This document shows positions 954 through 13,739 of a DNA stretch of 13,739 bases, piece by piece (position 1 is the stretch's first letter; each line of letters begins with the position of its first letter). The DNA comes from Nocardioidaceae bacterium (GTDB lineage Bacteria > Actinomycetota > Actinomycetes > Propionibacteriales > Nocardioidaceae): assembly GCA_025965395.1 (NCBI GenBank), contig JAOPXA010000185.1:1-13739 (forward strand), written 5' to 3'. Under the pieces are notes generated by a model, which saw nothing but the letters and a program-made list of their open reading frames with translations, ran no database searches and was not told the origin of the DNA. The position numbers were made by a program, and so were the translations under genes.

Positions 954-2900
<1,947 letters not shown>

Positions 2901-2926
2901 CCCCCGGCCCCCCAGCCCCACCCCCA

Positions 2927-2990
2927 CCGAAATCCGTGGGTCTCGCACTGTCTGAGCACCCCGTACGGTGTGAGACCCACGGGATTTCGG
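2927..2990 (+). repeat. Long hairpin after purU, terminator-like but without a U tract
   Basis: The left arm (2927-2950, begins CCGAAATCCGTGGGTCTC) pairs with the right arm (2966-2990, GAGACCCACGGGATTTCGG at its end) around a 15-base loop. There is a one-base bulge and two G-U pairs in a stem of about 24 bp. Outside it, a C-rich run (2901-2926) faces a G-rich run (2991-3020), which could lengthen the stem. It begins 26 bp after the purU stop, as expected for a terminator, but no T tract follows. Its layout resembles the hairpins at 8905-8970 and 12796-12873. Confidence 0.85.
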
Positions 2991-2991
2991 C

Positions 2992-3018
2992 GGGGGTGGG
3001 GGTAGAACGGGGTGGGGG
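2992..3018 (+). other. G-quadruplex-type G-run tract just upstream of galK
   Basis: Four G runs follow one another: five Gs, T, five Gs, TAGAAC, four Gs, T, five Gs. Four runs of at least four Gs with loops of 1, 6 and 1 bases match the canonical quadruplex pattern on the coding strand. The tract ends 15 bases before the galK ATG, so in the mRNA it would lie just upstream of or overlapping the ribosome landing site. Formation and any effect on galK are inference. Confidence 0.7.
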
Positions 3019-6832: not shown

Positions 6833-7399
6833 ATGAAATCGCTGACACCCCTCGCGGTCGCGACGCTGGCGTTGCTCAACGAAGGACCGATGCATCCCTA
6901 TGAGATGTATCAGCTTCTGCTCGCTCGTCACGAGGACAGACTCGTCAAGGTGCGGCCCGGCTCGCTCTATCACACGGTCGAGCGGCTTGCCCTCGACAAG
7001 CTCATCGTCGCCACGGGCACCGAGCGGGAGGGCAACCGTCCCGAGCGCACTACCTACGAAATCACGCCGCTCGGCCAGGAGGCCCTCGAAAACCGCGTTC
7101 GCGAGGTCTTGACCACACCCATCAACGAATTCCCCCAGTTCCCCTGGGCCCTTGGCGAGGCGCACAATTTGTCGCGCGACGAGGTCCTAGCGGCCTTGAA
7201 TCAGCACATCGCCGAGCTTGACGCGCTTATCGACGAATTCACGACCATCATCGAGGACGTCAAGCAGCGCGAGATCCCCGAGATCTACTGGGTTGCTGGC
7301 GACTACCTCCGCACGACCCGCCTGGCTGAACGCGCCTGGCTCGCCACCTTCATCGCACGACTCGAATCAAAGGAAATTCCATGGCAACTCGACACGTAG
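6833..7399 (+). CDS. PadR family transcriptional regulator
   Basis: A 188-residue regulator with an N-terminal winged helix (about 1-85) typical of PadR. It begins SLTPLAVATLALLNEGPMHPYEMYQLL, a near-canonical PadR opening, followed by the recognition-helix region KVRPGSLYHTVERL (40-53) and the wing TTYEITPLGQEAL (68-80). The C-terminal part (about 95-180) is helical and corresponds to the dimerisation domain of the longer PadR subgroup. Family members are usually repressors released by small toxic compounds. The ATG at 6833 has a strong AAGGGGG site five bases upstream. The gene overlaps the MFS exporter gene by 19 bp, so the pair is co-transcribed and probably autoregulated through the palindrome at 6789-6804. 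The inducer is unknown, but the likely target is the exporter it overlaps. Confidence 0.93.
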   Translation: MKSLTPLAVATLALLNEGPMHPYEMYQLLLARHEDRLVKVRPGSLYHTVERLALDKLIVATGTEREGNRPERTTYEITPLGQEALENRVREVLTTPINEFPQFPWALGEAHNLSRDEVLAALNQHIAELDALIDEFTTIIEDVKQREIPEIYWVAGDYLRTTRLAERAWLATFIARLESKEIPWQLDT

Positions 7400-8892
7400 T
7401 CGACATCGACGAGACCTACAACCCCTGGCCGGCCCTGTGGGCCATGGTCATCGGCTTCTTCATGATCCTGGTCGACTCGACCATCGTGTCGGTGGCAACA
7501 CCGGCGATCATGGAGGGCCTCAACACCGACGTCAATGCCGTCATCTGGGTCACCAGCGCCTACCTGCTGGCCTACGCGGTCCCGCTCCTCATTACCGGTC
7601 GTCTGGGTGACCGTTTCGGCCCCAAGAACGTCTACCTCATCGGTCTCGTCATCTTCACGGTCGCCTCGTTGTGGTGCGCACTCACCGGCACCATCGAGAC
7701 GCTGATCATCGCGCGCGTGGCTCAAGGCTTCGGCGCCGCGCTCATGACTCCCCAGACCATGGCCGTCATCACTCGCACCTTCCCGCCGGCCCGTCGCGGC
7801 AGCGCCATGGCCCTGTGGGGTGCGACCGCTGGCGTCGCCACACTCGTCGGCCCAATCCTGGGCGGCGTGCTCGTCGACTCGCTTGGCTGGGAATGGATCT
7901 TCGCCATCAACGTTCCGGTCGGCGTGATTGCGTTCGTCCTCGCCTGGCGCCTCGTGCCTACGCTGCAGACGCATACGCACTCGTTCGACTGGATCGGCGT
8001 GGTCCTCAGCGCGATCGCCATGTTCTGCATCGTGTTCGGCATCCAGGAGGGCGAGAAGTACGACTGGGGCGTGATCAACGGCATCATCTCCGTGCCCGGC
8101 CTGATCATTTTCGGTCTCGTCGTCCTCGGAGTCTTCGTGGTGTGGCAAGCGCGGATGAGCGGCGAGCCCCTCGTGCCGCTCGCGATCTTCAAGGACCGCA
8201 ACTTCTCGCTTGCCAATATCGCGATCAGCACGGTGGGGTTCGCCATCACGGCGATGGCCTTCCCGTTCATCCTGTATGCGCAAGCGGTTCGCGGCCTCTC
8301 CCCCACGACGTCAGCGCTGCTCTTCGCACCGATGGCCATCGTCCTGCTCTTGCTGGCGCCTGGCGTCGGCAAGCTCGTCGACAAGTTCCACCCGCGCTAC
8401 ATCGCCGGCTTCGGACTGGCCACGGGCGCTATCTCGTTCCTCTGGCTGTCATTGGCGATGACTCCCGATACGGCCACCTGGCAGCTTCTGCTCCCGATGG
8501 CGCTTCTCGGTGTGGCTAACGCGTTCATGTGGGCGCCGCTCGGGGCCACCGCCACCCGCAACCTGCCCATGACCTCGGCCGGAGCGGGCGCCGGGATCTA
8601 CAACACCACACGCCAGGTAGGCGCCGTGCTCGGCAGTGCGGGCGTTGCCGCGCTGATCCAGGCACGCCTGTCGGCCGAGGCGCCGCAGCTTGCTGGTGGC
8701 GCCGTCATCGACGCCGCGGGCCAGCGGATGCCTGCGGCCCTGGCCGACGGATTTGCCACCGCAATGTCACAAGCGGTGCTTCTTCCGGCGGGCATTCTCG
8801 TCATCGGCTTCCTCGCCGTGATCTTCTTCGCCCGGCCGGCTCACGCACAGGCCGCAGCGAAGCCCACACCCGCCGAAGCGCTCGCCGACTAG
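7381..8892 (+). CDS. DHA2 family (EmrB/QacA-type) MFS multidrug exporter
   Basis: A 503-residue major facilitator with 14 hydrophobic segments, the count typical of the DHA2 drug:proton antiporter family. It starts with FFMILVDSTIVSVATPAI (about 26-43), matching the DHA2 motif in helix 1. Motif A, GRLGDRFGPKNV (73-84), lies in the loop after helix 2, and the antiporter motif C region GVATLVGPILGG lies in helix 5. Such proteins expel drugs, dyes or toxic metabolites using the proton gradient, and no particular substrate can be named. The ATG at 7381 has an AAAGGAA site and lies inside the end of padR, overlapping it by 19 bp. It should therefore be repressed together with padR until an inducer is present. 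A hairpin (8905-8970) begins 12 bp after the stop. Confidence 0.93.
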   Translation: MATRHVVDIDETYNPWPALWAMVIGFFMILVDSTIVSVATPAIMEGLNTDVNAVIWVTSAYLLAYAVPLLITGRLGDRFGPKNVYLIGLVIFTVASLWCALTGTIETLIIARVAQGFGAALMTPQTMAVITRTFPPARRGSAMALWGATAGVATLVGPILGGVLVDSLGWEWIFAINVPVGVIAFVLAWRLVPTLQTHTHSFDWIGVVLSAIAMFCIVFGIQEGEKYDWGVINGIISVPGLIIFGLVVLGVFVVWQARMSGEPLVPLAIFKDRNFSLANIAISTVGFAITAMAFPFILYAQAVRGLSPTTSALLFAPMAIVLLLLAPGVGKLVDKFHPRYIAGFGLATGAISFLWLSLAMTPDTATWQLLLPMALLGVANAFMWAPLGATATRNLPMTSAGAGAGIYNTTRQVGAVLGSAGVAALIQARLSAEAPQLAGGAVIDAAGQRMPAALADGFATAMSQAVLLPAGILVIGFLAVIFFARPAHAQAAAKPTPAEALAD

Positions 8893-8904
8893 GGCAGCCT
8901 CCCT

Positions 8905-8970
8905 CCACGATTCGGATACTTGTACGCCGATCACCTCGCCTCCAAAGGCGGATACGTATCCGAATCGTGG
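8905..8970 (+). repeat. Long hairpin upstream of the sulfate operon (24-18-24 family, copy 1)
   Basis: Arms 8905-8928 and 8947-8970 pair around an 18-base loop. The outer 15 bp, CCACGATTCGGATAC with its complement, are perfect; the inner part has two mismatches and one G-U pair. The flank is CCTCCCT on the left and GGGGACGGGAGGGG-type G runs on the right. It matches the element at 12802-12867 in length, loop sequence and stem ends, with paired changes in the stem. It begins 12 bp after the MFS stop, as a terminator would, but has no T tract. Confidence 0.92.
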
Positions 8971-9008
8971 GGACGGGAGGGGAGGCCGTCTCAACAGGCG
9001 GCCATGTG

Positions 9009-9023
9009 TCTCGAATAGTGAGA
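9009..9023. promoter_or_regulatory. Imperfect TCTC-N7-GAGA dyad before the sulfate operon
   Basis: TCTCGAATAGTGAGA is a 15-bp imperfect dyad about 90 bases before the binding-protein ATG. Its outer half-sites resemble TCTC/GAGA operators of amino-acid and sulfur regulators in actinomycetes, such as IclR-type NdgR, as I recall them. It could control sulfate uptake. The match is short and the assignment is weak. The rest of 8984-9113 shows only the GAAAGG ribosome site and no recognisable riboswitch. Confidence 0.3.
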
Positions 9024-9113
9024 TGCGTACGAGTGGCGCACAAAGTCGACTAAGTTCATGGACTAATACCCCACAGGTTGCCCTGCGCACCTCCCCCGAA
9101 AGGCTCGACGCAC

Positions 9114-10151
9114 ATGAAGATCACACCCGGAAAACGACTCGCTACTGTCGCACTCATGGCAGGCGCGCTCATGCTCTCCGCCTGTGGCAGTAGCAGCGAT
9201 GATTCCGGTGCCTCCGGCTCGACCACCCTGTCGCTCGTGGCTTACTCGGTCCCCAAGGCTGCCAACGGCGGGCTCGAAAAGGCATTCGAGAAGACGGCCG
9301 ATGGCAAGGGCGTGACCTTCAAGGAGTCCTACGGCGCCTCGGGCGACCAGAGCCGCGCGGTTGCCGGTGGCCTCAAGGCCGACGTCGTCCACTTCTCATT
9401 GACTCCCGACGTGACCCGTCTCGTGGACGCCGACCTGGTCGCCAAGGACTGGGACCAGAACGACCACAAGGGCATCATCTCGACGTCCGTCGTCTCGCTC
9501 GTCGTCCGCAAGGGCAACCCCAAGAACATCCAGACGTTCGCCGACCTCGCGAAGCCGGGCATCGGCATCGTGACGCCCAACCCCGGTTCGTCAGGCTCGG
9601 CACGCTGGAACATCCTGGCCGCCTACCAGTCGGTCATCGCCAACGGCGGCTCCGAGGCCGACGCTGAGGCATACCTCACGAAGCTCTTCGCCAACGTCAA
9701 GGCGCTGCCCGGCAGCGGCCGCGACGCGACGACGGCTTTCCAAGGCGGCACGGGCGACGTGCTCCTCTCGTACGAGAACGAGGCCATCTTTGCCCGCGCC
9801 AGCGGCGAGGACATCGACTACGTGATCCCGAAGCAGAACCTTCTGATCGAGAACCCGGGCGCCGTCACGTCCAAGGCACCCGCCGCCGCGACGAAGTTCC
9901 TCGACTTCGCGATCAGCCCCGAAGGCCAAGGAATCTACGCGCAGTTCGGCTTCCGCCCGGTCGCCTCGGTTCAGGGCGTCAAGGTGGGCACGGTCAAGGG
10001 CGCCAACGATCCCGCCAACCCGTTCCCGGCCGTCGATGAGCTGTTCACGATCAACGACACGTTTGGTGGCTGGACCGCCGTCAACGACAAGTTCTTCGCG
10101 GACAACACCGGCATCATCACCAAGATCATCGCGGCTTCTGGCAAGTCGTGA
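9114..10151 (+). CDS. cysP: Sulfate/thiosulfate ABC transporter substrate-binding lipoprotein
   Basis: This 345-residue protein captures sulfate or thiosulfate outside the membrane for the CysTWA importer. It has a lipoprotein signal: charged KITPGKR, a hydrophobic stretch, and the lipobox LSAC with Cys24 as the lipidation site. Then comes a serine-rich linker. The mature part follows the Sbp/CysP pattern, including FKESYGASGDQSRAV, ADVVHFSLTPDVTRLV and IGIVTPNPGSSGSARWN. These correspond to the oxyanion-binding loops of known sulfate-binding proteins. The ATG at 9114, with GAAAGG ten bases upstream, gives a proper signal peptide; a TTG at 9078 would add an unlikely 12 residues. The stop overlaps the GTG of cysT by 4 bp. 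Sulfate cannot be separated from thiosulfate by sequence, so the symbol is provisional. It is the first gene of a four-gene operon bracketed by two related hairpins. Confidence 0.92.
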   Translation: MKITPGKRLATVALMAGALMLSACGSSSDDSGASGSTTLSLVAYSVPKAANGGLEKAFEKTADGKGVTFKESYGASGDQSRAVAGGLKADVVHFSLTPDVTRLVDADLVAKDWDQNDHKGIISTSVVSLVVRKGNPKNIQTFADLAKPGIGIVTPNPGSSGSARWNILAAYQSVIANGGSEADAEAYLTKLFANVKALPGSGRDATTAFQGGTGDVLLSYENEAIFARASGEDIDYVIPKQNLLIENPGAVTSKAPAAATKFLDFAISPEGQGIYAQFGFRPVASVQGVKVGTVKGANDPANPFPAVDELFTINDTFGGWTAVNDKFFADNTGIITKIIAASGKS

Positions 10152-10996
10152 CGTTCGAAACCCCTACTGAACCGGGCACGGCGCGTCGCACGCGCCGTGC
10201 CCGGTCGGCCAACTCACTGACGCGATCATCGGGCCTCGGCCTGGGGATCGCGTTGACGTGGTTCAGTCTCCTCGTCCTCATCCCGCTCGCCCTCATCGTG
10301 ATCCAGTCGATCGACGGCGGTTGGGAGACATTCCGTCTGACGCTCACCAACCCTCAGACTGTTTCAGCGTTGCGCCTCACCGTCGAGCAGTCGCTGATCG
10401 TCACGCTCATCAATGTCGTGATGGGCACGCTCATCGCCTGGGTCCTCGTCCGCGACGACTTCCCTGGCAAGCAGCTTCTTGAAGTCGTCATCGATATTCC
10501 TTTTGCCTTGCCGACTATCGTCGCCGGGTTGGTGCTGCTGAGCCTCTACGGACCCACCAGCCCGCTGGGGATCAACGTGGCCAACACCGAGCGGTCGGTC
10601 TTCCTGGCACTCCTCTTCGTCACGCTGCCCTTCATCGCGCGCACGGTGCAACCGGTGCTCCTCGAGCTTGATCGCGACGTCGAGGAAGCCGCAGCCTCCC
10701 TGGGTGCCAGTCGGTTCGTCACGCTGCGGCGGATCATTCTTCCCGCCCTCGCACCTGCGATCGCCGCTGGCGCAGCGCTCTCCTTCGCCCGAGGCATCAG
10801 TGAATACGGGTCCTTGGTCTTGCTGTCAGGCAACCTGCCCAACAAGACCGAGGTCGCGTCGGTGCGCATCCTGACCTACATCGAGAACGGCAACGAGGCA
10901 GCCGCCGCATCGGTGGCTGTGTTGTTGCTGCTGGTGGCGCTCCTCGCCATCACGATCCTGCAGATCATCACCTCGAGGGTGGCTCGCCGTGGCTAG
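10148..10996 (+). CDS. cysT: Sulfate ABC transporter permease CysT
   Basis: One of the two membrane subunits of the sulfate/thiosulfate importer, 282 residues with about six membrane helices. The first helix is at about 33-53, after a basic, arginine-rich N-terminal tail. The cytoplasmic EAA loop that docks on the ATPase is clear: DVEEAAASLGASRFVTLRRI (177-196), followed by LPALAPAIAAGAAL. The segments DIPFALPTIVAGLVLLSLYG and RGISEYGSLVLLSGNLPNKT are strongly CysT/CysU-like. The GTG start at 10148 overlaps the preceding stop as GTGA, and the gene's own end overlaps cysW by 8 bp, so all subunits should be made by coupled translation in balanced amounts. Confidence 0.93.
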   Translation: MTFETPTEPGTARRTRRARSANSLTRSSGLGLGIALTWFSLLVLIPLALIVIQSIDGGWETFRLTLTNPQTVSALRLTVEQSLIVTLINVVMGTLIAWVLVRDDFPGKQLLEVVIDIPFALPTIVAGLVLLSLYGPTSPLGINVANTERSVFLALLFVTLPFIARTVQPVLLELDRDVEEAAASLGASRFVTLRRIILPALAPAIAAGAALSFARGISEYGSLVLLSGNLPNKTEVASVRILTYIENGNEAAAASVAVLLLLVALLAITILQIITSRVARRG

Positions 10997-11819
10997 CAGC
11001 AGAGTGCAGCCGAAGACGGCCGGCACCTACGTGCGACGCGTGATCGTCATCGCATACCTGTTCTTTCTCGTCGTGTGGCCGGTCTCCTTGGTCGTGAAGC
11101 ACACGTTCGACGGAGGATTCGGCAACATCACTACCGCGTTGTCCGACCCTGTAGTGACGGACGCTCTCCGGCTCACGGTCTATGTCGCAATCTGGGCAGT
11201 CGTGATCAACACGGTGTTCGGCATCGGTGTCTCCCTGTTGCTCGTGCGGTATGAGTTCCCGGGGCGCAGCGTCCTGTCGGCGCTGATCGACCTGCCTTTG
11301 GCTGTCTCGCCCGTCGTCGTGGGCCTCGCGCTGCTTCTTGCCTACGGCGGCACCAACGGCCTTTTCGGGCCGTTCTTGAACTCGATAGGTTTTCAGGTCG
11401 CTTTCGCGACCCCTGGCATCATCCTGGCAACCGCATTCGTCAGCTTGCCCCTCGTGATCCGAGAACTTGTCCCGACGTTGCAGGAGATCGGCACCGACCA
11501 AGAGCAGGCCGCACGAAGCCTCGGGGCTGGTCCGTGGGCGACATTCCGGCGGATCACACTTCCCTCGATCAAGTGGGCCCTTGTCTACGGTGTCGTGCTC
11601 AGCCTCGCTCGCTCACTCGGCGAGTTCGGGGCGGTCAAGGTCATCTCCGGCAACATTGCCCAGCAGACCCAGACAGCCACCCTCGTCGTCGAGCAGAAGT
11701 ACCAAGACTTCGAGCAAGAAACGGCGTACGCCACATCCTTCCTCCTCACGCTGATCGCCATCGCGGCGCTCGTCGTGATCACCATCCTTCGACCGAAAGA
11801 TAAATCCGATGGGAATTGA
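10989..11819 (+). CDS. cysW: Sulfate ABC transporter permease CysW
   Basis: The second permease of the importer, 276 residues with about six helices, the first at about 17-36. The EAA loop reads [20 protein letters not shown] (170-189) and is followed by [26 protein letters not shown], a strong CysW signature. [20 protein letters not shown] (219-238) is equally typical. CysW pairs with CysT to form the channel across the cytoplasmic membrane. The GTG at 10989 lies inside the end of cysT with a GAGGGTGG site ahead of it. The 3' end overlaps cysA by 11 bp. Confidence 0.93.
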
Positions 11820-12768
11820 GATCCAGGGGATCAACAAGAACTTCGGCGACTTCGTCGCCCTCGATGACATCAACCTGAGCATCCCGACCGGACGTCTCAC
11901 GGCTCTCCTCGGCCCTAGCGGCGGCGGCAAGTCGACCCTGTTGCGCATCATCGCCGGGCTCGAGTCGGCGGACTCGGGCGTCGTGGAGATCGAGGGAATC
12001 GACGCTACCCATCTCCCGGCCCAGAAGCGCAACGTCGGCTTCGTCTTCCAGCACTACGCCGCGTTCAAGCACATGTCTGTGGCGAAGAACATCGCATTCG
12101 GCCTCGAGATCCGCAAGAAGCCGAAGGCTGAGATCGCGGCCAAGGTCGACGAGCTGTTGAAGCTCGTACACCTCAGCCAGTTCGCGCACCGATTGCCGTC
12201 ACAGCTGTCGGGCGGTCAGCGCCAGCGCATGGCGTTGGCCCGAGCACTCGCCATCGAGCCCACGGTGCTCCTGCTCGACGAGCCGTTCGGCGCGCTGGAC
12301 GCCAAGGTCCGCAAGGAGCTGCGCGACTGGCTCCGTCGCCTGCATGACGAGGTGCACGTGACCACCGTGTTCGTGACCCACGACCAAGAGGAGGCGCTCG
12401 AGGTCGCCGACACGATCGTCGTCATCAACGAGGGCCGTATCGAGCAGGTGGGTAGCCCCGATGACCTCTACGACAAGCCGGCGAGCGAGTTCGTATTGAG
12501 CTTCCTCGGCCCCGTGACACGCCTGCGTGGCGAGCTGGTTCGGCCCCACGACATCTTCCTCTCGCGCTCAGAGATTCCCAGTGCCGTCGCGGGGACTATC
12601 TCGCGGTTCACGCGCATCGGGTTCGAGGCACGGTTCGATGTGACGCCCGCCGACGGCTCGGAGCCGGTCATCGTCGAGATGACCCGCAACGAGGCGTTGT
12701 CGGAGGACCTCAAGCCCGGTGATGCCGTGTGGCTCAAGCATGTGACCGGAATACCCGCGACCCGCTAG
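11809..12768 (+). CDS. cysA: Sulfate/thiosulfate import ATP-binding protein CysA
   Basis: The ATPase that powers the importer, 319 residues. All nucleotide-binding elements are present: Walker A GPSGGGKS (35-42), Q-loop Gln81 in [12 protein letters not shown], signature LSGGQ (133-137), Walker B VLLLDE (153-158) and the H-loop His191 in [26 protein letters not shown] is characteristic of CysA rather than of other ABC ATPases. The C-terminal part (about 235-319) looks like a compact TOBE-type domain with VRPHDIFL. The chain is shorter than many CysA proteins of about 340-360 residues, so the regulatory tail is reduced. The ATG at 11809 overlaps cysW by 11 bp. It is the last gene of the operon, and a long hairpin starts 27 bp after its stop. 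Confidence 0.95.
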
Positions 12769-12795
12769 ACGTCCCCCTACCTCCCTCCACGCATA

Positions 12796-12873
12796 CCTTC
12801 TCCACGATTTGGAGAGTTACACGCCTATCCGCTCGCGAGGAAAGGCGTATAACTCTCCAAATCGTGGGGAAGG
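12796..12873. repeat. Long hairpin after cysA (24-18-24 family, copy 2)
   Basis: The core arms 12802-12825 and 12844-12867 enclose an 18-base loop with one C-A mismatch. CCTTCT on the left and GGAAGG on the right extend the stem to about 30 bp, including one G-U pair. The core begins CCACGATTTGGAGAG and ends CTCTCCAAATCGTGG. Loop bases ATC, CTCGC and AAA match the copy at 8905-8970 at the same positions. The site lies between convergent genes, 27 bp after the cysA stop, so a two-way terminator is plausible, though no T tract is present. Confidence 0.92.
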
Positions 12874-12907
12874 GAGGGGTACGGGAGGGGTGGGGTGCGG
12901 GGCGGGG
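12866..12907 (+). other. G-run tract with quadruplex potential between convergent genes
   Basis: Eight runs of three or four Gs, separated by one to three bases, follow the hairpin right arm and stop at the last base before the downstream gene's stop codon. Several combinations satisfy the four-run quadruplex pattern on the plus strand. On the minus strand the same tract is C-rich and is transcribed just after the MFS stop. Any role in ending transcription is inference. Confidence 0.6.
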
Positions 12908-13739
12908 CTAGACCGAGGCGCCGACGAGCTCGCGGGTGCGCGTGCGCTTGGAGTGCACGATCGAGACGCCAAGGATCGCCAGACCGCCGAGCGCGAGGCC
13001 GACGCCCACCTTGCTCGGCGCGGTGTATCCATACCCAGCAGAGATGACGACGGCACCGAGGTAGGCACCGAGCCCGTTGGCCAGATTGAGTGCCGAATGA
13101 TTGAGGGCGGCGCCGAGCATTTTGGCTTCGCCCGCCACATCCATGAGCCGCATTTGCAGGCAGACGGCCACCAAGGAGCCTGCCGCAGAGATCGCGAAGA
13201 CCAGGAAGAGTGCCGACACGGCATAGCTGGCACCGACGACGAAGAGCGCCAGCAGCACCGCCATCGCCAGGAACCCGCCGACGAGCGACTTGATCACGCT
13301 GAAGTCCGCCAGCCGGCCGCCGATCGCGGTACCCGCCAAGCCACCGAGTCCGAAGGCGAACAGAAACCACGGGATCGCGCTCCGCGAAAGACCGGTGACG
13401 TCCGTCACCGTGGGCGCGATGTAGCTGTACATCGCAAACATGCCGCCGAACCCGACCATGCCCGCGGCGACGGTGAAGAGCACCTGGGGTTGGCGCAAGG
13501 CATTGAGCTCGCGCCCGACCGAGGCCGACTTGTCGCCCTCGACCTTGGGAACGAGGAACCTGATCGCGATCGCCGTGAGCACCGTCAGGACGACGACCGT
13601 CCAGTACGCGCTGCGCCAGCCGAGATTCTGCCCCAGCCAGGTGCTCGCCGGGACGCCGGCGACATTGGCGACCGCTAGGCCGAGCATGACCGAGCTCACC
13701 GCGCGGCCGCGGAACCTGGGTTCCACCATCGAAGCGGCG
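12908..13739 (-). CDS. MFS transporter (DHA1-type, AraJ/arabinose-efflux-like), N-terminus cut by window edge
   Basis: The frame is open from the right edge to the TAG at 12908-12910, giving about 277 residues. An ATG at 13729 is the first in the window, but family-like sequence (A-S before MVEPRFRGRAVSSVMLG) continues upstream of it. I therefore read it as internal and the gene as truncated. The stretch RGRAVSSVMLGLAVANVAGVPASTWLGQNLGWR fits the helix 4-5 region with motif C of DHA1 exporters. Eight or so further hydrophobic helices follow. Roughly the first third of a protein of about 390-400 residues is missing. Relatives export drugs, sugars or purines; the substrate here is unknown. It converges with cysA, and the two share the hairpin and G-rich intergenic stretch. 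Its tail is short and basic (HSKRTRTRELVGASV). Confidence 0.88.
   Translation of the reverse strand, partial: AASMVEPRFRGRAVSSVMLGLAVANVAGVPASTWLGQNLGWRSAYWTVVVLTVLTAIAIRFLVPKVEGDKSASVGRELNALRQPQVLFTVAAGMVGFGGMFAMYSYIAPTVTDVTGLSRSAIPWFLFAFGLGGLAGTAIGGRLADFSVIKSLVGGFLAMAVLLALFVVGASYAVSALFLVFAISAAGSLVAVCLQMRLMDVAGEAKMLGAALNHSALNLANGLGAYLGAVVISAGYGYTAPSKVGVGLALGGLAILGVSIVHSKRTRTRELVGASV

Follow-up and report, generated by a model that had tools for sequence, protein, structure and literature searches.

Genes for RAYT proteins (REP-associated tyrosine transposases) lie between repetitive extragenic palindromic sequences (REPs) in arrangements termed "REPtrons", the enzyme and its palindrome diverge together, and the presence of the gene tracks the abundance of the repeat (PMC2817692, PMC3733652). 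The REP palindromes are 20–40 bp long and carry GTAG or CGTC at one end (PMC3733652). Other DNA-binding proteins are also relevant here: 23-bp inverted repeats are bound in pairs by AbiEi and by Rv2827c, each of which acts as a repressor at its own promoter (PMC7319586), and I-Bth0305I, an enzyme of the EDxHD type, forms a dimer on a target almost 60 bp long (PMC3943268). The subject of the present analysis is a pair of related 66-nt hairpins in a 13,739-nt stretch of DNA from a Nocardioidaceae bacterium (contig JAOPXA010000185.1; the whole stretch is called the window below). These hairpins are probably REP-like dispersed palindromes, acting as the cognate DNA sites of a resident AbiEi–Vsr/EDxHD fusion nuclease that is unrelated to the RAYTs. 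The dispersed family, its nearly fixed length, the two-sided flanking of the nuclease gene, the gene-specific palindromes diverging with the protein, and the presence, absence and subtype replacement at individual sites were all computed directly.

The original prediction placed the hairpins at 8905–8970 and 12802–12867, each with 24-base arms and an 18-base loop, and these coordinates are borne out. An inverted-repeat search recovers the same arms and spacing for copy 1 (8905–8928/8947–8970, 24 nt, 88% complementary, 18 nt between them) and places copy 2 inside a longer imperfect palindrome (12774–12830/12839–12895). The predicted folds are very stable on both strands, and the hairpins are not due to chance, because none of 200 shuffles folds as well (z −4.8 for copy 1 and −11.0 for copy 2, + strand). 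Reading of the letters also confirms the reported identity of 11 of 18 loop bases, the two-sided changes at pairs 9 (C-G/T-A), 13 (T-A/G-C) and 15 (C-G/G-C), and the difference at pair 18 (G-T against A-T). The remark that no named family fits holds for Rfam, where none of the 11 matches up to E 1 reaches its gathering score; the best match at an element is a microRNA model with 35.7 bits against a gathering score of 77.

The genome containing the window (G000) is a metagenome-assembled genome (MAG) with a total length of 1.80 Mb, spread over 330 contigs, and a completeness of 62.7%. The pattern CCACGATTN{35,65}AATCGTGG gives 13 forward matches in it, corresponding to 12 elements (one overlapping double count), and its reversed-pattern control gives none. 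With a covariance model (R1) built from 33 copies, 72 strand matches, equal to 36 elements, have been identified in the same genome, a search repeated on the contigs; 31 of the 36 are exactly 66 nt long, with ends of the type CCACG..CGTGG. The predicted dispersed element family, as opposed to chance terminators, is thereby established, and the search extends it to relatives: R1 has matches in 11 of the 58 relatives searched and, counted by genus with that of the window among them, in 10 of 33, and four Mumia genomes have 31 to 98 strand matches each. Of 294 genomes of the window's family, the Nocardioidaceae, 9 contain the exact pattern; one of these (G047) carries an unrelated 79-bp repeat instead. 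A single sequence family spanning the whole order was rejected, as R1 has no match in 21 genomes of the other families of the order under stricter filters. Across genera whose palindrome sequences differ the length is kept, the palindromes measuring about 57–72 nt. As a separate observation, the repeat of G047 (genus g19) starts with CCACGATTCTYC and has 7 copies in one genome, for example at L014.

The partner gene of the own genome lies outside the window, on another contig (G000:C132, minus strand, locus L052), between elements at 297–362 and 1421–1486. A gene of the same family with an element on each side was found in all six cases first met, and among 370 genes in element loci only 10 have elements on both sides, the six nuclease genes among them. 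The protein consists of an AbiEi-type DNA-binding N-terminal half fused to a Vsr/EDxHD-type nuclease half, as indicated by profile and fold comparison (the fold coming from one member). It is a predicted endonuclease with a Vsr-like fold, conserved E, D, H and D and invariant nuclease residues, the sequence similarity to EDxHD/Vsr enzymes being weak (E 0.0087). The Pfam domain DUF559 was detected in all six flanked proteins. No toxin partner was recognised beside the gene by eye in the six translated loci, a check made without a domain scan. In a Mumia genome, two palindrome subfamilies correspond to two genes of this kind, each gene having palindromes of its own type on either side, and the type-B gene of G063 (L168), found later, is flanked by type-B palindromes; a third close family member in G048 (C1:1486452) is outside the set analysed. 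Between two Mumia species the palindrome–gene–palindrome cassette is inverted relative to its neighbours (L127 against L130), in a locus which we take to be MeaB/citrate synthase.

The arrangement is not confined to the relatives of the window. All 17 genomes with pattern or model matches hold the protein family (E ≤ 1e-15), which is present in 185 of 296 genomes of the class Actinomycetes (E ≤ 1e-20). The best matches, not a random sample, were taken as 57 loci (L149–L205), two of which (L178, L196) were dropped for want of a gene call; L161 and L179 are the same locus. For each locus the best palindrome within 330 nt on either side was recorded, a pair being counted as similar at a score of at least 14. 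Two similar flanking palindromes were found at 35 of 55 loci, including 15 of 21 outside the window's family. Paired similar palindromes were found at none of 150 control genes away from elements, a control that is too favourable since it omitted genes near elements, and at 3 of 250 when element-adjacent genes were included, 116 of the same 250 having some strong palindrome in a flank. The upstream copy commonly lies 46–68 nt ahead of the called start, with outliers to 214, and the downstream copy, in strong cases, between 14 nt upstream and 22 nt downstream of the called stop. At L177 (1187–1411), as an observation apart, three head-to-tail 59-nt palindromes with an 83-nt period, resembling an array of bacterial interspersed mosaic elements (BIME), stand upstream of a DUF559-family gene, and a related palindrome is also present downstream of it.

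Palindromes are specific to their genes. In a family other than that of the window (f23, genus g69), 9 of the 11 genomes of the genus contain a pattern derived from the gene flanks, with 72, 56, 46, 38, 11, 11, 3, 3 and 1 occurrences and no match of its reversed control, and in one genome of this genus (G449) two palindrome subtypes flank two different genes of the protein family. Among 49 genomes of another genus, the palindrome of the G085 gene was found only in G085 (7 copies) and G123 (2 copies), from both of which the pattern had been derived; a close orthologue of the gene is likewise limited to G085 (100%) and G123 (77%), the best protein elsewhere reaching 58%. Protein identity and palindrome similarity are correlated over 37 gene–palindrome pairs (Mantel r 0.722, p 0.0001), with r 0.714 for 22 pairs of the window's family and 0.683 for 15 others; L156 (11.4) and L168 (13.2), below the cut of 14, were put into this set by eye. 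The correlation indicates joint divergence rather than binding, because common descent alone yields it too.

A conventional transposon has also been considered, the palindromes being the terminal repeats of miniature inverted-repeat transposable elements (MITEs), with the transposase encoded elsewhere and the nuclease gene as cargo or fellow traveller. MITEs are typically short, dispersed palindromes of uniform length, and some copies lie in a stretch duplicated together with a DUF222-type gene. The origin is nevertheless very improbable, as the flanked gene belongs to one protein family across taxa although the palindromes differ, and the length is kept in genera with different sequences. No target-site duplication is apparent by eye in 12 own copies. 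The Pfam scan of the six flanked proteins detected no Y1 transposase at E ≤ 0.1 and no transposase domain. The DUF222-type gene itself was rejected as the partner; only three of the 36 own copies are in a similar stretch upstream of one. These copies (L068 3061, L072 672, L073 3057) are situated in a stretch of about 270–800 bp common to the three loci, 75–85% identical, which leads into the DUF222-type gene (Pfam checked for L073 only) and also carries TTGAGC(C/T)TGTCGAAATCC-like repeats.

The co-varying stems had originally been read as the sign of a folded RNA. Pairing is indeed kept despite the change in sequence when 33 copies drawn from four genera are compared: two-sided changes are seen at 14 of the 15 stem pairs that vary, 90.2% of stem cells are paired against 73.2% after shuffling of the 3' letters, and the covariation score is 0.443, against 0.152 for shuffled and at most 0.115 for slid controls. 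The copies were collected by a pattern fixing the outer 8 pairs, hence only the inner 16 pairs are informative, and relatedness of the sequences alone can beat such shuffles, the slid controls still being far below the observed score. Within the own genome, pairing barely exceeds that of arms swapped between copies, and in this respect the earlier interpretation is not sustained: 12 copies have 149 Watson-Crick pairs against 139.4 (p 0.012), and 33 copies have 74.2% against 72.5% (p 0.10). Another comparison of the 12 copies also gives a small excess of pairing, 87.5% against 85.0%. Among six Mumia subfamilies, four have a significant small excess (p 0.0008 to 0.021) and two have none, making four of seven subfamilies tested; in subfamily G056A pairing is below the swapped value (65.6% against 70.2%), perhaps through trimming of some copies at one end. 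Each arm changes as its own copy of a shared degenerate half-site, any additional coupling being weak at most. Because they vary almost independently within a genome, the arms resemble a pair of half-sites for a protein more closely than they resemble an RNA stem. Selection on an RNA stem as the sole cause was rejected, the arm-swap tests being weak within genomes. For the covariation between genera the stronger explanation is that both half-sites would track the specificity of the cognate DNA-binding nuclease; a cruciform, or a terminator role in addition, may also contribute. As a caution, a folded RNA does not necessarily follow from covariation in a DNA palindrome.

The same data bear on bidirectional terminators or 3'-end stabilising hairpins in which the stem pairing itself would be selected. 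Very stable folds on both strands, compensatory change across genera, positions near stop codons, mainly between convergent genes, and the small pairing excess in four of seven subfamilies all agree with such a role, which is nonetheless improbable in view of the near independence of the arms within genomes. A terminator needs neither a nearly fixed length nor a conserved outer half-site, and a folded RNA leaves both the nuclease gene between the copies and the gene-specific sequences unexplained. Reading of the letters reveals no T-run after either window copy on either strand, and a terminator scan, which allowed loops of 3–8 only, gives no site at either copy. Ordinary intrinsic (Rho-independent) terminators were rejected on the missing T-runs and on the nearly fixed length and sequence of the family.

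The 36 own elements are placed between convergent genes in 21 cases, tandem genes in 8 and divergent genes in 2, one being inside a doubtful gene call and four at contig ends. In the own and three Mumia genomes together (109 elements), 56 of 89 placed elements are convergent, compared with 46 of 393 element-free neighbouring gene pairs from the same loci (odds ratio 12.8, p 1.6e-22). Many elements begin 5–20 nt past a stop codon; genes were called by a simple codon-model script checked on the window, and the distances are therefore rough.

At orthologous sites, elements are kept in some species and are absent or of another subtype in others. At the same intergenic site in different species, the element may occur in each species' own sequence type (L121/L099, L106/L102/L145, L080/L103), and 5 of 16 G063 elements share their gene pair, both flanking genes matching, with an element among 28 from G048, the other G063 elements having been compared with fetched loci only. 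In G449, copies 97.8% identical over 91 bp are located in unrelated flanks; two further pairs of copies have longer stretches in common, perhaps as a result of segmental duplication. At the L220 site the element is present in G449 and missing from 6 species, in which the genes nearly abut; the extra DNA, about 116 nt, comprises the palindrome and GC-rich borders and is longer than the palindrome alone. At the L219 site three species, among them G449, carry one subtype, three carry another and three have no element; the L222 site lacks the element in all 4 species read, and the L218 site has another hairpin in the one species read. The species read were 7 of 7 (L220), 8 of 10 (L219), 4 of 7 (L222) and 1 of 4 (L218) of those with both flanks, those for L222 and L218 having been picked for short gaps, which biases towards absence. 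As a side observation, the L220 site of G386 (L238, G386:C416:340–1480) holds another kind of insertion, roughly 700 nt in length, which contains long inverted repeats rich in GC.

Immobile sites bound by an AbiEi-type protein and co-evolving as a regulon, such as operators, insulators or protein-dependent 3'-end terminators, are suggested by the element being kept at orthologous sites while its sequence follows the species' own type, by the nearly fixed length and by the strong convergent 3'-end bias (56/89 against 46/393). AbiEi-type proteins are, moreover, known autoregulators (PMC7319586). This explanation is unlikely all the same: genomes within a single genus carry anywhere from 0 to 72 copies of one type, near-identical copies occur in unrelated flanks, absences at orthologous sites are clean, and a regulator needs no invariant nuclease residues.

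Several observations weigh against the palindromes being the sites of the fusion nuclease. Binding, cutting and movement are what we infer from the patterns above, and the first six flanked genes lay in loci chosen for holding elements. At 20 of 55 loci the flanking palindromes are below the similarity cut, several having one palindrome or none, and the genes at L162–L165 are distant homologues (E 1.2e-21 to 5.4e-42 and 3.3e-26). The Mumia type-A proteins of G048 and G056 (whole-protein identity 0.65) are no closer than types A and B of G048 (0.67), yet the palindromes are shared by type A, and in G123 the pattern matches only the two copies that stand on either side of the gene. The element kept between species at some orthologous sites fits selection as well as mobility, target-site duplications are also not apparent by eye at the L220 site, no systematic search having been made, and the small excess of arm pairing in four of seven subfamilies is not required by the half-site model.

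In the proposed mechanism, each palindrome would be a double-stranded DNA site formed by two inverted half-sites for a dimer of the fusion protein. This reading is suggested because AbiEi and Rv2827c bind inverted repeats, I-Bth0305I dimerises on a long target, and the sizes fit: a palindrome of 65–66 bp, with two inverted half-sites of about 24–28 nt at fixed spacing, corresponds to the need of an AbiEi–EDxHD dimer. The upstream copy would be the operator of the nuclease gene, and the protein would cut the palindrome or its target. Repair of the cut from another copy may then spread new copies and convert old ones to the current type; this step is the least certain, and cutting with repair conversion would explain the concerted evolution. 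Copies may settle at convergent 3' ends because the least harm would be done there, and may help to end transcription. Tentatively, with the balance of our judgement still on the side of doubt, this could amount to a class of mobile DNA apart from insertion sequences, introns and RAYT-REPs. It would consist of a homing-type (EDxHD) nuclease that reads DNA through its AbiEi half and has its own recognition palindrome as sole cargo; cutting and repair would copy the site, overwrite outdated copies and leave convergent gene ends of actinobacteria marked by enzyme-specific palindromes. If so, most Actinomycete genomes could carry one or more independently specified palindrome sets.

The features of the window and the flanked genes are collected in the table. 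Copy 1 follows the stop codon of the MFS transporter gene by 12 nt and precedes the same-strand substrate-binding-protein gene by 143 nt. Copy 2 lies 33 nt past the stop codon of the ABC ATPase gene, with the stop of the opposing MFS gene 40 nt away on its other side.

Table. Positions of the palindromic elements, their neighbours in the window and the nuclease genes flanked by elements (MFS, major facilitator superfamily; ABC, ATP-binding cassette)
Feature	Position	Strand	Description
Element copy 1	8905..8970	no strand	66-nt palindrome, two inverted ~24-nt half-sites, 18-nt centre; model E 1.5e-12
Element copy 2	12802..12867	no strand	66-nt palindrome between convergent genes; model E 6.1e-15
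Copy 1 with borders	8897..8985		pyrimidine-rich left and purine-rich right border, making the predicted stem longer
Copy 2 with borders	12790..12882		copy 2 together with its bordering sequence
MFS transporter gene	7381..8892	+	upstream of copy 1; context only
Substrate-binding-protein gene	9114..10151	+	downstream of copy 1; context only
ABC transporter ATPase gene	11809..12768	+	upstream of copy 2; context only
MFS gene convergent on copy 2	12908..13729	-	context only
Flanked genes	G000 L052 376-1308; G048 A L127, B L118; G063 A L094; G056 A L130, B L133		

Other repeats have been met in the same genome. A second dispersed hairpin family is represented in the window at 2916–3001 (CCGAAATCCGTGGGT..GCAC..loop); an exact-pattern search gives 3 copies, one each on C180, on C306 and in the window, and one arm of the family also occurs beside the nuclease cassette (L052 1503–1515), and no partner gene for it was found in G000, a MAG 63% complete. 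A perfect inverted repeat (22/22, 10-nt loop) at window positions 1974–2027 lies between divergent trpS-like and purU-like genes and has no 3'-end position. At L072 (1378–3347), two tandem copies of a gene, presumably aldo/keto-reductase-like, are 76% identical in DNA.

The results suggest an unnoticed kind of enzyme-linked genomic repeat. A class of dispersed palindromes in actinobacteria gains a partner, and hence a testable cause, and a role is suggested for a large protein family that carries no annotation beyond "DUF559 domain-containing protein". The system would mean that palindromic repeats linked to an enzyme have originated repeatedly, each time with a nuclease unrelated to the others. 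It would also offer many natural pairs of a protein and a 60–70 bp site, in which the evolution of specificity in a DNA-binding nuclease with a long site could be studied.

Searches of open-access papers turned up no account of palindromes on either side of DUF559 genes. In contrast to the AbiEi antitoxin and Rv2827c, the protein described here is fused to a nuclease and its sites are dispersed over the genome. It differs from I-Bth0305I and Vsr in that there is no intron, the gene lies between palindromes in intergenic DNA, and an AbiEi-type half is added. With REP/RAYT (PMC2817692, PMC3733652) the system shares a nuclease-type gene between two palindromes, the dispersal of the same palindrome between genes and the link of gene presence with repeat abundance. 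Repeat and gene also diverge together here, the flanking, at 35 of 55 loci, not being universal. The differences from REP/RAYT concern the protein, which has AbiEi and Vsr/EDxHD halves instead of a Y1/HUH domain, the occurrence of the system in Actinomycetes, and the palindromes, which are longer, at about 57–72 nt, and lack the GTAG or CGTC end tag given for REPs (PMC3733652). The architecture works like a REPtron without being one, since the enzyme is unrelated.

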